Source: a virus. From it: DNA of 26,892 nt. Below the pieces are notes generated by a model that saw only the letters and a list, made by a program, of their open reading frames with translations, ran no database searches and was not told the origin of the DNA. Below, piece by piece: positions 9,898 through 26,892 of this stretch (positions are counted from its first letter, which is position 1; each line of letters starts with the position of its first letter). The position numbers and the translations under genes were made by a program. The stretch lies in the IMG/VR virus record IMGVR_UViG_3300010354_000518, positions 1-26,892 of that record, one strand, 5' to 3'.

Positions 9898-15225
<5,328 letters not shown>

Positions 15226-19362: not shown

Positions 19363-20916
19363 ATGACCAGTCTGGTAGAAGACTTCGCAGGCCTGTTCGC
19401 GGGCAATCTCCGTTCCTACGGTGAGTGGGATCCCAGCACCGGGAATATGTCCACCATCAAAGCCGAGGTGCCGCTTGCGGCGTACGAGGCGCACATCGAG
19501 GGCCGGATGGGTCTCGGCATCGTCCCGATCACGGACGGCGACACGTGCGCGTTCGGTGCCATCGACATTGACAAGCATGACACGCCCGAGGACATCGACT
19601 TCAAGTCGCTCGCGGCAAAGATCAAGGAGTACCGGCTCCCGCTGGTAATGTGTCGTACCAAGCGTGGTGGGGCGCACCTGTACGTGTTCGGGTCGGAGTA
19701 CCTCCCGGCCAAGCAGGTGCAGCGGCTGTTGGCCTCCTGGCGCGACATGCTCAAGATCCCGTACAAGACCGAGATCTTCCCGAAGCAGGACTCGCTGGTG
19801 ACCAGCAGCGGCGAGAAGGCGCTCGGGAACTGGATCAACCTGTGTTACTTCGACGCTGCTGATTCCAAGCGGTACGCATTCGACGAGAACGGCGAGCGGA
19901 TGACGTTCGAGTTATTCGTGCAGTATGCCCAATCCAAGCGGATCAGCGCGGCAGAACTGGCCGAGTTCACGCAGCGGGAGCACCTGGAGGCACCACCCTG
20001 CGTTCAGAAGATGATCCACACCGGCGTGGAGTCCGGTGCCCGAAATGACGCCATGTACAACGTGGTGATCTATCTCAAGCGGGCGCGACCGGACTCGTTC
20101 TTCGACGACGCGATGGCGTTGAACAAGCAGATGTTCGACAAGCCGCTGCCACCGTCCGAGGCCAAGAAGGTGATCCGGTCAGCGTCCAGGCGTGATTACC
20201 TGTACAAATGCGGCGAGGAGCCCTGCAAGAGCCTGTGTGATCGTAAGGTGTGCGTCACGCGCGAGTTCGGAATCTCGATGGACGAGAAGAAGGAACTCGA
20301 CGCGCACGACTCGCTGCCGATTTTCAGCGAACTGATCGAGTACCAGTCCGAGCCTCCACGGTGGGGTATCCACGTCAACGGCCAGCTTATTAACAACATC
20401 CCGACGGTGGTGCTGCGCGACCCGGCGGCGATGGGTACGCTGATATTCGAGAAGCTCAAGGTCAACATCCCGAAGATCAGTCAGGATTCGTGGCGAAAGA
20501 GAATCCTCGACCCGCTGGTGCCGACCCTGCGTACGGTTGAGGTGCCGAAGGAGGCGAGCGCGTCGGGCGTTGTTCAGGCCAAGTTCGTCGAATTCGTGCA
20601 AAAAGCTGATCTGAGTTCGGAAGGAACGAACACCGAGGATCGCAAGGCGCTGCTACGGAACATCCCGGTGGTGCAGGTGATCAACGGCGTGCGGTGCGTG
20701 GTGTTCCGGGGCACGGCATTCTCAGAGTACCTCAAGCGTAACAAGGCCGAGGTCATGACCGGGATGGACCTGTGGACCTGTCTGCGGCGAGACTGTGGCG
20801 CGGATCACGACAAAATGCGAATCCCCGGCGGCAAAGTGATCAATGTGTGGTATGCCCCCATCACCGACGAACACGAGGTGCGAGCAGATGACCCCGAATT
20901 CCAGTCAGAGTTCTAA
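19363..20916 (+). CDS. AEP-superfamily DNA primase with Zn-binding motif
   Basis: 517 aa, ATG behind AGAGGGAAGA. The N-terminal domain shows archaeo-eukaryotic primase motifs: FGAIDIDKHD with metal-binding Asp68 and Asp70, RGGAHLYVFG with His105, and TEIFPKQ with Glu137, then a GNWINLCYF segment (residues 155-163). This most resembles the TOTE-type/phage AEP primases. Residues about 215-280 (GARNDAMYNVVIYLKRARPD, then PPSEAKKVIRSASRRDYLYK) look like a PriCT helical domain, followed by a Cys cluster C283-x4-C288-x3-C292-x4-C297, probably binding zinc. The C-terminal 210 residues are not recognised. It would make primers, possibly also longer products. It is the first gene after the repeat-rich control region and overlaps the SNF2 helicase by 29 bp. 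Confidence 0.8.
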   Translation: MTSLVEDFAGLFAGNLRSYGEWDPSTGNMSTIKAEVPLAAYEAHIEGRMGLGIVPITDGDTCAFGAIDIDKHDTPEDIDFKSLAAKIKEYRLPLVMCRTKRGGAHLYVFGSEYLPAKQVQRLLASWRDMLKIPYKTEIFPKQDSLVTSSGEKALGNWINLCYFDAADSKRYAFDENGERMTFELFVQYAQSKRISAAELAEFTQREHLEAPPCVQKMIHTGVESGARNDAMYNVVIYLKRARPDSFFDDAMALNKQMFDKPLPPSEAKKVIRSASRRDYLYKCGEEPCKSLCDRKVCVTREFGISMDEKKELDAHDSLPIFSELIEYQSEPPRWGIHVNGQLINNIPTVVLRDPAAMGTLIFEKLKVNIPKISQDSWRKRILDPLVPTLRTVEVPKEASASGVVQAKFVEFVQKADLSSEGTNTEDRKALLRNIPVVQVINGVRCVVFRGTAFSEYLKRNKAEVMTGMDLWTCLRRDCGADHDKMRIPGGKVINVWYAPITDEHEVRADDPEFQSEF

Positions 20917-23495: not shown

Positions 23496-24245
23496 ATGGC
23501 AAAGACGAATCTGGCAGTCAAGGAAGCTGAACAGTTCGAACTGGTAACCAACGAGGCACCGGACTGGCTCCCGCAGGGCGTGGCACGGGGCGCGGAGAAT
23601 GTCGGCACCGACGACATGATCATCCCCCGGATCGAACTCGTGCAAGCGCTGTCCCCGGCGCGTAATAAGAAGGACGCGGCCTACATCGAGGGCGCGGAAG
23701 AGGGTATGCTCTTCAATAACGTCACGCGCGAACTCTATGGTGAGAACGTGACGGTGATTCCGGTGTATTACACCAAGCAATTCCTGATCTGGAAGGACCG
23801 CAAGCAGGGTGGTGGCGGCAGCAACGGGTTCCGTGGCGCATTCGCGACGCGCGAACTGGCTGAAGCCGAGATCGCCAAGCTCGGCGAGGAAGGCCTGGAG
23901 GCTACCGACACGGCTCAACACTTCGTGCTGGTGCGCAGCGGCGAGGGCTGGACCGAGGCGGTGCTGTCGATGGCCAAGTCCAAGATGAAGGTCAGCAAGC
24001 GCTGGAATTCGCTGATTCGGATGTCGAACACGGATTCTTTCGCGCGGGCTTATAAGCTCTCCTCGGTCACCGAGACCAACGCGCGTAACGAGTCGTACTT
24101 CAATTACAACGTGACCCCGCTGGGCTACGTTGCGAAGGACGTCTACGAGCGTGCCGAGAAGCTGTACGAGACGATTCGTGCCGGTGGCGTGAAGGTCAGC
24201 AATGACTACGACTCCGAGCCTGTCGCCGCAGATAGCGAGTATTGA
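23496..24245 (+). CDS. Conserved phage replication-region protein, 249 aa
   Basis: ATG preceded by TGGAGCATATAA. The pattern DDMIIPRIELVQALSPARNK, then EGAEEGMLFNNVTRELYGEN, then VTVIPVYYTKQFLIWKDRK is typical of a widespread phage protein found beside ssDNA-binding proteins and polymerases. Residues about 95-150 include a Gly-rich loop and a charged helix, and the C-terminal part (VLSMAKSKMKVSKRWNSLIR, then YFNYNVTPLGYVAKDVYERA) is conserved. The acidic C-terminus (DYDSEPVAADSEY) recalls the tails of ssDNA-binding proteins. A ssDNA-binding or recombination-helper role is possible; I do not recognise any catalytic residues. Confidence 0.6.
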   Translation: MAKTNLAVKEAEQFELVTNEAPDWLPQGVARGAENVGTDDMIIPRIELVQALSPARNKKDAAYIEGAEEGMLFNNVTRELYGENVTVIPVYYTKQFLIWKDRKQGGGGSNGFRGAFATRELAEAEIAKLGEEGLEATDTAQHFVLVRSGEGWTEAVLSMAKSKMKVSKRWNSLIRMSNTDSFARAYKLSSVTETNARNESYFNYNVTPLGYVAKDVYERAEKLYETIRAGGVKVSNDYDSEPVAADSEY

Positions 24246-24282: not shown

Positions 24283-24295
24283 ACTGGAGACCGAA

Positions 24296-24634
24296 ATGGC
24301 TACCAAAAAGAGCGCGACCACCGAGCCGCACGACGATTTCAAGACGATGCCGACCACGATGCCTACCGAGGAGCTTGAGGCGAAGCCCGAGCCTATCCCG
24401 GTCGCACCCGCCCCGGCACCCGCCCCTGCGCCTACTGGGTACCGCGATTTGTCCAGCGACGAGGCTCGTCGCGTGGCGAAGGTTAAGGCAGATTTCAGCG
24501 ACCTCATCGGCTACATCAACGCGCTGCGTGACTCGGTGCACGACGCCGAAGTGCAGCGCATGTATTCCGTCGCCATCACCAACGCCGAGACTGCCAGCAT
24601 GTGGGCGGTCCGAGCCATCACGCACCGAGGCTGA
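24296..24634 (+). CDS. Acb2/Tad1-like hairpin protein, candidate anti-CBASS sponge
   Basis: 112 aa from ATG 24296, chosen because TGGAG lies seven bases upstream (an earlier in-frame ATG at 24272 falls inside the leader hairpins). Residues 1-47 are a low-complexity linker rich in Thr, Glu, Pro and Ala (VAPAPAPAPAPTG). Residues 49-109 form a two-helix unit: YRDLSSDEARRVAKVKADFS, DLIGYINALRDS, then VQRMYSVAITNAETASMWAV and RAIT. The Y-R-x-L-S-x-x-E start and the S-x-A-x-T-x-x-E-x-A-x-M-W-A-x-x-A-I end match my memory of the Acb2/Tad1 hairpin family, whose members bind cyclic oligonucleotide signals and block CBASS or Thoeris. The function here is inferred; many members of this family are uncharacterised. 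The UvrD gene follows with a 1-bp overlap (TGATG). Confidence 0.55.
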   Translation: MATKKSATTEPHDDFKTMPTTMPTEELEAKPEPIPVAPAPAPAPAPTGYRDLSSDEARRVAKVKADFSDLIGYINALRDSVHDAEVQRMYSVAITNAETASMWAVRAITHRG

Positions 24635-26049
24635 TGAGAGTCGAGGCCATCTACGGGCCTCCCGGCACGGGCAAGACCACGGAGTTACTGCGTCGAGTGA
24701 AGCACACCCGGGACACTGGGGTGCAAGCTGAGCGCATCGCTTTCGTGTCTTTCACCCGTGCTGCGGCGAGCGAGGCGCTGTCGCGTCTAGGCTTGAAGCG
24801 GTCCAATAACGTGAGCACGATCCACGCCATGGCGTTCAGGCATCTCGGCCTGAGGCAGACCCAGGTGGTGGACCACGTGAAGCTCAAAGAGTTCGCTAAA
24901 GCGGTGGGGGTGCCGATCATCGGCAAGTCACCGGAAGATGATGAGGAGCGTGCAGATGGAGACTTCTACCTCGACCTACTCAATTACGCGCGAAGCACGT
25001 TCAGCATACCGGAGGAGGTCTACGACATCTCCGATCGCCCGGGCACGCGAGCAGAGTTCGGGATGTTCGTTCGCGCGTACGCTAATTGGAAACATACATA
25101 CGGATATTACGACTTCACCGACATGCTGGAGAGAGCGGCGAAAGGTGGTATCCGTGCGGATGCCGAAGTCGTATTCGTCGACGAGGCTCAAGACCTATCA
25201 CCTCTTCAGTGGGCTGTTGTCGACAAGATCTGCAAGCGAGCACACGAGGTGCATCTCGCGGGCGACGACGATCAGGCCATCTATACGTGGTCAGGAGCAG
25301 ACCCTCACGGTATGGCACGATTCACGGACCGGCACAAGGGTACTAGCCACGTTCTGTCGCTCTCGCATCGACTTCCTGTTGCAGTCCACGAAAGATCTCA
25401 AGCGCTCATCAATCGAGTCATGCTCCGAGTGGATAAGGAATTCAGTTCCAAAGGACATCTGGGATTGGTCCGCCTACACGGTTCGATCAACTCGGTGGAT
25501 ATCCGGCACGGGCAAGATACGCTACTTCTGGGACGGACGCATTCGGTCCTGCGCGAAGTTGAGCAATTGCTCATCGAAAGGCGCATTCCGTATTCCCGCG
25601 AATCCGGTCGCCCCGGTATGTACCAGAACAAGTACGCCGCCGGAGTCCGCGCCTTTAATAAGCTCAAGCGCGGGGGCCACATTACAGACGGAGAGCGTAA
25701 CGCTATTTACAACATTGCCACTGCCGACGCACTTAAACGAATGGACGACGGTGACTACAAGTTCCTCGTCGATCGGCCCTTCTACGTCTGCCTCAACGTC
25801 CCCGCCCGGGCCGTTGACTTTTACGCGGATGCTGACCTTGATGCGGAACCTACTATTCGTCTTTCTACTATCCATGCTTCTAAGGGTCATGAAGCGGAGC
25901 AAGTGATTCTGCTCACGGACATGACCACCCGGGTGCAGCAGACGGCAGAGAAAAGCCCGGACGACGAGATCCGGGTCTTTTACGTCGGCATGACACGCAG
26001 CAAGAACATTCTCGACATTGTGGAGGGCCACAACGGATTCAAACTGTAG
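24634..26049 (+). CDS. UvrD/Rep-type superfamily 1 DNA helicase
   Basis: 471 aa from ATG 24634 at a TGATG junction, with GAGG just upstream; the ATG at 24601 would lie wholly inside the previous gene. SF1 motifs in order: Walker [10 protein letters not shown] (8-16), motif Ia [12 protein letters not shown], Walker B VFVDEAQD with DEAQD at 183-187, motif [17 protein letters not shown] (from 210), motif IV-like [16 protein letters not shown], motif [19 protein letters not shown] and motif [19 protein letters not shown]. It is short relative to UvrD (about 720 aa) because the accessory domains are reduced, as in many phage helicases. It would unwind DNA 3'-5' with ATP in replication or recombination. 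A patch near 25850-25900 uses T-ending codons unlike its surroundings. Confidence 0.9.
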
Positions 26050-26108: not shown

Positions 26109-26378
26109 ATGAGCAAGCAATACGACAACACCAATTCGGGCATTCTCGCGCGTAACGAGCGCAAGGAGAAGGACACGCACCCGGATTTCACCGGCTCGAT
26201 CAACGTCGGCGGCACCGACTACTGGCTGTCCGCCTGGGTGAACGAGGGTCGCCCCGGCACCAAGTTCGAGGGCCGGAAATACTTCTCGATCAAGGTAAAT
26301 CCGAAGGATCAGGGCGGCTCCTCCCGGCCCGCGCCCCCTAAGGGCGACACGTACGTGGACGAAGACATTCCGTTCTGA
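26109..26378 (+). CDS. Small SSB-like phage protein with acidic tail
   Basis: 89 aa. The blocks [40 protein letters not shown] and [16 protein letters not shown] describe a small beta-barrel-like protein family common in phages and plasmids beside DNA polymerase or SSB genes. After a short Gly/Ser/Pro linker the protein ends in DEDIPF, the same acidic-then-Pro-Phe end used by bacterial SSB to recruit replication proteins. A role in single-stranded DNA binding or partner recruitment is therefore plausible. It is translationally coupled to the polymerase by a TGATG junction and has its own promoter. Confidence 0.6.
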
Positions 26379-26892
26379 TGACTGCCTTTCCCCGCATCGA
26401 CCGCGTGCCCTACGTGGTCATCGACACGGAGACCACCGGGCTGAAGTGGTGGGAGGACCGAGTATTCGGGATTTCCATCGCCCTGCCCAACGGCGACTCC
26501 ATGTACTGGGACATCCGCACCGACCCGCAGGTCATCCAGTGGCTCAGCGATCTGGCCAAGGATGATCGTGTGGGGGTGTGGGTGGGTCATAATCTGAAAT
26601 TCGACTACCATTTCCTGCGCGAGGCCGGATTCGTCATGCCGCCCGACCGCATCGACTGCACGATGATTCGGGGTGCCCTGATCAACGAGCACGAGCCCAC
26701 CTACTCGCTCGACTTCCTGGCTCGCAAGTACGGCAAGCAGCAGAAGGACGAGGAGATTTACGAGGAGATGGCGAAGCTGTTCGGCGGTCGCGCTACCCGA
26801 TCGGCGCAGATGCCGAATATCTCGCGTGCTCCGGTGCACGTGGTGGCGAAATACGCCAAGCAGGACGTGATCGCGACCCGGGCGCTGTACGA
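26378..26892 (+). CDS. Family A DNA polymerase, N-terminal 3'-5' exonuclease part (cut by window end)
   Basis: 171 complete codons are visible; the frame is open to the window end. All three exonuclease motifs of a DnaQ-fold proofreading domain are present: Exo I VIDTETTGL with Asp16 and Glu18, Exo II GHNLKFDYHFL with Asp76, and Exo III YAKQD with Tyr159 and Asp163. The start of the domain close to the N-terminus and the ordering TYSLDFLARKYG, then KYAKQDVIATRALY are typical of phage PolA-type polymerases, whose polymerase domain would follow beyond the window. A free-standing exonuclease cannot be excluded. ATG 26378 overlaps the previous stop by one base. Confidence 0.85.
   Translation, partial: MTAFPRIDRVPYVVIDTETTGLKWWEDRVFGISIALPNGDSMYWDIRTDPQVIQWLSDLAKDDRVGVWVGHNLKFDYHFLREAGFVMPPDRIDCTMIRGALINEHEPTYSLDFLARKYGKQQKDEEIYEEMAKLFGGRATRSAQMPNISRAPVHVVAKYAKQDVIATRALY

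Follow-up and report, generated by a model that had tools for sequence, protein, structure and literature searches.

The gene at 24296-24634 (plus strand) of the window, that is, of the whole 26,892-nucleotide stretch of viral DNA analysed here, would encode, with a probability of about 75% as judged from its sequence, a divergent Acb2-type cyclic-nucleotide sponge that traps CBASS signals and is carried as an optional cargo gene where stop and start codons meet in the replication operon, rather than as a component of the replication machinery.

Gene layout and family assignment

The open reading frame starts with ATG, ends with TGA at 24632-24634 and translates into the 112-residue protein quoted in the sequence-only reading; it is a real, conserved gene. 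The stop codon and the start codon of a UvrD-type helicase gene overlap in the sequence TGATG at 24632-24636, where the UvrD ATG (24634-24636) shares the final A of the TGA. Upstream, profile matches give the gene order AEP-type primase, SNF2-type helicase and Pam3 gp32-, gp33- and gp34-like genes, while downstream come UvrD, an SSB-like protein and, truncated by the window end, a DNA polymerase exonuclease domain. Both the coupling to UvrD and the placement among replication genes, as described in the sequence-only reading, thus hold. The primase (19363-20916) is of the archaeo-eukaryotic type and matches the TOTE conflict-system primase model PF22548 at 46 bits; elsewhere in the window, 10139-14254 forms a 1371-residue open reading frame with DUF4214 as its sole Pfam match. 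The features of the locus are the following.

23496-24245, plus strand: Pam3 gp34-like gene, the upstream border of the cargo slot (PF23977, 226 bits)
24286-24289, plus strand: GGAG ribosome-binding-like motif, 6 nt 5' of the start codon, read from the sequence
24296-24634, plus strand: Acb2-family hairpin gene, 112 aa (PF24729, 57 bits; 10-sequence alignment)
24296-24436, plus strand: variable Pro/Ala-rich disordered N-terminal tail, residues 1-47, starting MATKK (AlphaFold pLDDT; nucleotide identity)
24437-24631, plus strand: Acb2-type hairpin, residues 48-112, with helices 54-80 and 84-109 (PF24729 profile, AlphaFold, Foldseek, VIA-align)
24440-24442, plus strand: codon for Tyr49, equivalent to T4 Acb2 Tyr8 and PaMx33 Acb2 Tyr11 (profile, pairwise and structure alignments)
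24578-24580, plus strand: codon for Thr95, equivalent to T4-type Acb2 Thr68 (alignments)
24634-26049, plus strand: UvrD-type helicase, the downstream border of the slot (PF00580), its start codon overlapping the hairpin gene stop

The PF24729 (Acb2_Tad1_hairpin) profile, whose curated cut-off is 27 bits, matched residues 48-109 at 57 bits (E = 2.3e-15; profile positions 1-57 of 58). With the same profile, the founding Acb2 from PaMx33 (93 aa) scored 66 bits and a T4-type Vs.4 (88 aa, from Escherichia phage 4E10) scored 71 bits, and the family search matched none of 14 control genomes. All three proteins begin at profile position 1, so that Gly48-Tyr49 corresponds to Gly10-Tyr11 of PaMx33 and Gly7-Tyr8 of the T4-type protein; the domain spans 62 residues here versus 80 and 77, respectively, with a turn region 15-18 residues shorter. 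Phmmer searches of the PDB returned chiefly low-complexity matches to the Pro/Ala tail when the full protein was used and reached Vs.4 at E 0.52 with the hairpin alone, and an NCBIfam search with the protein gave nothing meaningful. Because a 10-sequence profile search reached solved Acb2 only at E 0.21-0.24, a weak direct match, the family claim rests on PF24729 together with the fold search. A further match of the hairpin is to the C-terminal end of phrog_717, a profile of 289 positions and unknown function, from which the domain seems to terminate larger phage proteins as well.

AlphaFold modelling with the 10-sequence alignment predicted an antiparallel two-helix hairpin (block pLDDT 89-96 for the two helices) that resembles solved Acb2, a likeness of limited weight since helical hairpins are common. 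The 47-residue Pro/Ala-rich extension noted earlier is present and is predicted to be disordered, with a pLDDT of ~40 over residues 1-30, values below 50 over residues 1-31 and no strand in the model. In the Foldseek comparison with Acb2 proposed by the sequence-only reading, the six best PDB chains were all Acb2/Vs.4 (8h2x, 8h2j and 7uq2; probability 0.92-1.00, best E 0.19), though no PDB match reached E 0.001. VIA-align superposed the model on 8h2j_B (Z 7.5, 63 residues, rmsd 1.6 Å, 33% identity, first pair model 48 = chain 10) and on 7uq2_D (Z 8.7, 71 residues, rmsd 4.7 Å), and a viral fold library search placed named Acb2/Tad1 hairpin proteins at three of the best seven listed, none with a significant E-value. 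As unrelated helical hairpins also reach VIA Z scores of 7-8, the fold by itself would not decide; identity and register are what distinguishes Acb2 from other helical hairpins. Profile, fold and residue register together bear out the assignment to the Acb2/Tad1 hairpin family.

Compared with Acb2 of Pseudomonas phages PaMx33/PaP2 (PDB 8h2j, 8h2x and 8ixz), the protein shares the Pfam domain from position 1, an identical GYRDLS containing the key Tyr, and the closely superposing hairpin; however, overall identity is low (34%), the tail of PaMx33/PaP2 Acb2 is ~9 residues long whereas the disordered one here has 47, and the window hairpin is 18 residues shorter. Acb2/Vs.4 of T4-type phages (PDB 7uq2) has in common with it the domain, an ASMWAxRA segment and the Tyr8 and Thr68 equivalents, but differs in carrying Phe82 where Thr109 stands here; the window protein also has a shorter hairpin turn and the added tail. 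Tad1 (Thoeris anti-defence 1) shares the Pfam family name and two C-terminal helices, but is described as having an N-terminal four-strand beta-sheet; since none is predicted in the tail here, the modelled protein is of the Acb2 type. Solved Tad1 did not appear among the best 50 Foldseek PDB matches or the VIA-align matches listed, an absence that proves nothing. Short phage proteins of 66-80 aa annotated as 'Acb2/Tad1 hairpin domain-containing' (e.g. A0A8S5TVN8, L022 and L049) are already known; those of L022, which lies in the same slot, and L049 share an MWAVK-type second helix, but lack the long tail and have FNPSG or FNPGQ in place of GY-LS before the hairpin. The gene is therefore a further Acb2-family member, set apart by its tail and shorter hairpin.

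In T4 Acb2, Y8A and F82C are reported to abolish or diminish binding and T68M to lower affinity (PMC12657218, PMC12657230). Pairwise alignments pair these residues with Tyr49 (Tyr8), Thr109 (Phe82) and Thr95 (Thr68). The aromatic residue that stacks before the hairpin (Tyr8 in T4, Tyr11 in PaMx33) is thus present as Tyr49, at profile position 2 in all three proteins, while the C-terminal ligand-stacking Phe82 of T4 is replaced by Thr109; Phe82 is not family-defining, because PaMx33 Acb2 has Ala at that position. Of the nucleotide-pocket residues expected in the sequence-only reading, the Tyr8 and Thr68 equivalents were kept and that of Phe82 was not. Lys64 follows Tyr49 by 15 residues, as Lys26 follows Tyr11 in PaMx33 and Lys23 follows Tyr8 in the T4-type protein, and the aligned Lys26 of PaMx33 presumably contacts the ligand. 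Among the 14 homologues read in frame (the mis-framed L048 row being excluded), K64, R88, T95, W103 and T109 were identical throughout, while position 49 was Y in seven, H in three and A, V or G in four, and is hence not invariant in the subfamily.

The slot between the gp34-like gene and uvrD

A search of viral contigs with the gp34-like protein encoded upstream, a query neutral with respect to the hairpin gene, recovered 18 loci. UvrD lay nearby in 14, with a PF24729 gene between the two in six and absent in eight; the other four (L027-L030) had no recognisable UvrD nearby and no PF24729 match in the record. The gp34 and uvrD genes were directly joined at all eight empty sites, with a TGATG or TAATG overlap in L015, L018, L021, L024, L025 and L026 (the coordinates of L019 and L020 are those of L018), although many of the eight are near copies and represent few independent events. 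Comparison of L021 with L023, whose flanks are 95% (upstream) and 90% (downstream) identical, revealed a clean 551-bp insert in L023 that holds a short hairpin gene (78 aa, tail-less, FNPSG type) and a Cys-rich open reading frame. On a UvrD tree of 18 rows plus an outgroup, in which carriers of the hairpin gene are favoured among the rows first recovered with the hairpin as query, the presence/absence label needs four changes, at least two of them forced by starred branches.

Other small genes also occupy the slot. A small Cys-rich protein (CxTCxWFV...GRCRRHAPTM...DWCGDH) is encoded between the hairpin gene and uvrD at L005:1744-1962, L007:6306-6545, L022:5872-6300 and L003:6309-6599; the L005 copy and the L022 stretch had no Pfam match and the L003 copy no PHROG match, and that of L005 weakly matched one PHROG of unknown function. 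Unrelated small open reading frames lie 5' of the hairpin gene at L004:5198-5984 and L007:5370-5997, three of which were searched and had no PHROG match. In Acinetobacter phage SH-Ab 15497, a known Z phage, a dCMP-deaminase-like gene stands between the gp34-like gene and the helicase (L033:5801-6322). Away from this slot, a long-tailed hairpin gene directly precedes the DNA polymerase gene in L008, and another precedes a Cas4-type exonuclease and a resolvase in L011. Replication blocks are an ordinary location for hairpin genes, which is consistent with early expression. An alignment-based scan of bacterial genomes found 45 stretches fitting a pattern, none of which was confirmed as a relative.

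Relative to L001, dS was ~1.0 over the last 64 codons of the hairpin gene, compared with 0.24 for UvrD and 0.38 for gp34, and dN/dS was 0.13, 0.075 and 0.083, respectively. Nucleotide identity to L051 was 0.52-0.85 inside the hairpin gene and 1.00 over the first 60 bases of uvrD, and the tail (residues 1-47) was 0.52-0.80 identical to that of the nearest relative. This pattern is consistent with allele replacement by recombination, or with locally raised divergence, and with purifying selection on the hairpin. Faster divergence than in the neighbouring genes, under purifying selection, is how optional counter-defence cargo behaves.

Probable Z-genome relatives

An adenylosuccinate-synthetase match was found in 16 of the 19 records examined; those without one were the window record (cut at the polymerase), G023 and G026. 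L051, which is 91% identical to the last 2.4 kb of the window, encodes a polymerase, a PurZ with a GSTGKG motif, a dATP/dGTP pyrophosphohydrolase and a YfbR-like (DatZ-like) protein; the same motif occurs in Acinetobacter phage SH-Ab 15497. In close relatives (L051:3503-7702), the PurZ, pyrophosphohydrolase and DatZ-like genes lie just 3' of the polymerase, and the window, at 26378-26892, would be cut off just before them. The hallmark of phage PurZ is reported to be a Ser replacing Asp13 of PurA (PMC12884076), and we read the Ser of GSTGKG as this residue from the motif itself rather than from an alignment. By analogy with its relatives, the window phage probably has a 2-aminoadenine (Z) genome. 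Z-DNA metabolism was considered as the main function of the hairpin protein and rejected, as the hairpin-bearing G023 and G026 (possibly fragments) have no PurZ match and some PurZ-bearing relatives have no hairpin gene. Among the literature matches listed, none treated Z genomes and Acb2 together.

Proposed role and alternatives

The operon layout suggests that the hairpin gene is co-transcribed with the replication genes and would thus probably be an early product. As in the rest of the family, the hairpins may pack into an Acb2-like oligomer, one that could differ from the Acb2 hexamer given the 15-18 residues missing from the modelled hairpin. The putative oligomer would trap the cyclic di- and/or trinucleotides that host CD-NTases synthesize and thereby keep CBASS effectors, and those of other systems using the same signals, switched off; the Pro/Ala-rich tail would be a flexible, fast-changing appendage.

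That the protein is instead a replication accessory, such as a UvrD partner or loader, with the counter-defence use of the fold being derived, is suggested by the overlap with the UvrD start codon and by the polymerase and Cas4-type exonuclease genes that adjoin long-tailed hairpin genes in L008 and L011. The same genes speak against a fixed partner, since the neighbour differs between phages, and the gene is missing from eight of the 14 gp34-found relatives with UvrD, where gp34 is joined straight to UvrD; the nearly identical flanks of L021 and L023 differ by the insert. Moreover, acb2 of PaMx33, established in the literature as a sponge gene, likewise ends a replication block, where two hypothetical genes separate it from the preceding polymerase, primase and MazG genes, which makes such a location ordinary for acb2. 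We therefore regard an accessory role as quite unlikely, and the suggestion in the sequence-only reading that the family's ancestral role may lie in replication found no support, the slot being empty in close relatives and similar hairpin genes adjoining different genes in other phages. A generic helical hairpin scoring on PF24729 by chance would account for the many mid-range structural matches, which are typical of helical hairpins, but an E-value of 2.3e-15 across the whole profile, functional residues that fall in the same register and the absence of matches in the control genomes make this explanation exceedingly improbable.

A sponge that chiefly binds something other than a CBASS cyclic dinucleotide, be it cyclic trinucleotides, cyclic oligoadenylates of type III CRISPR, cADPR isomers (as for Tad1) or another nucleotide, is an improbable reading, though a more plausible one than either of these. 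The stacking Tyr of the cyclic-dinucleotide pocket varies among the homologues while K64, R88 and T95 are constant, and solved Acb2 and Tad1 are described as using distinct pockets for different ligands; the window protein, however, retains the GYRDLS of PaMx33 Acb2 as well as K64. The preferred reading remains an Acb2-type sponge directed at CBASS signals. More tentatively, and with the odds rather against it, the gene may represent a distinct Acb2 subfamily with a short hairpin, a disordered MATKK tail and a shifted ligand preference, carried as exchangeable cargo at one constant stop/start junction in the replication operon of 2-aminoadenine (Z-genome) phages.

These findings extend a proven immune-evasion family to uncultured phages, probably with Z-DNA, and mark the junction between the gp34-like gene and uvrD as a precise site where accessory genes, here two sequence types of putative sponge, come and go, making the slot a practical place to seek more counter-defence genes. 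If the variability at Tyr49 reflects ligand choice, the homologues would offer a ready-made set of variants in which to study specificity. Such specificity is of consequence, as sponges that take up decoy cyclic nucleotides are reported to set off the Panoptes defence (PMC12657218, PMC12657230). Should the distinct-subfamily reading be true, these phages would be protected twice, from DNA-targeting defences by their modified bases and from signalling defences by a sponge.
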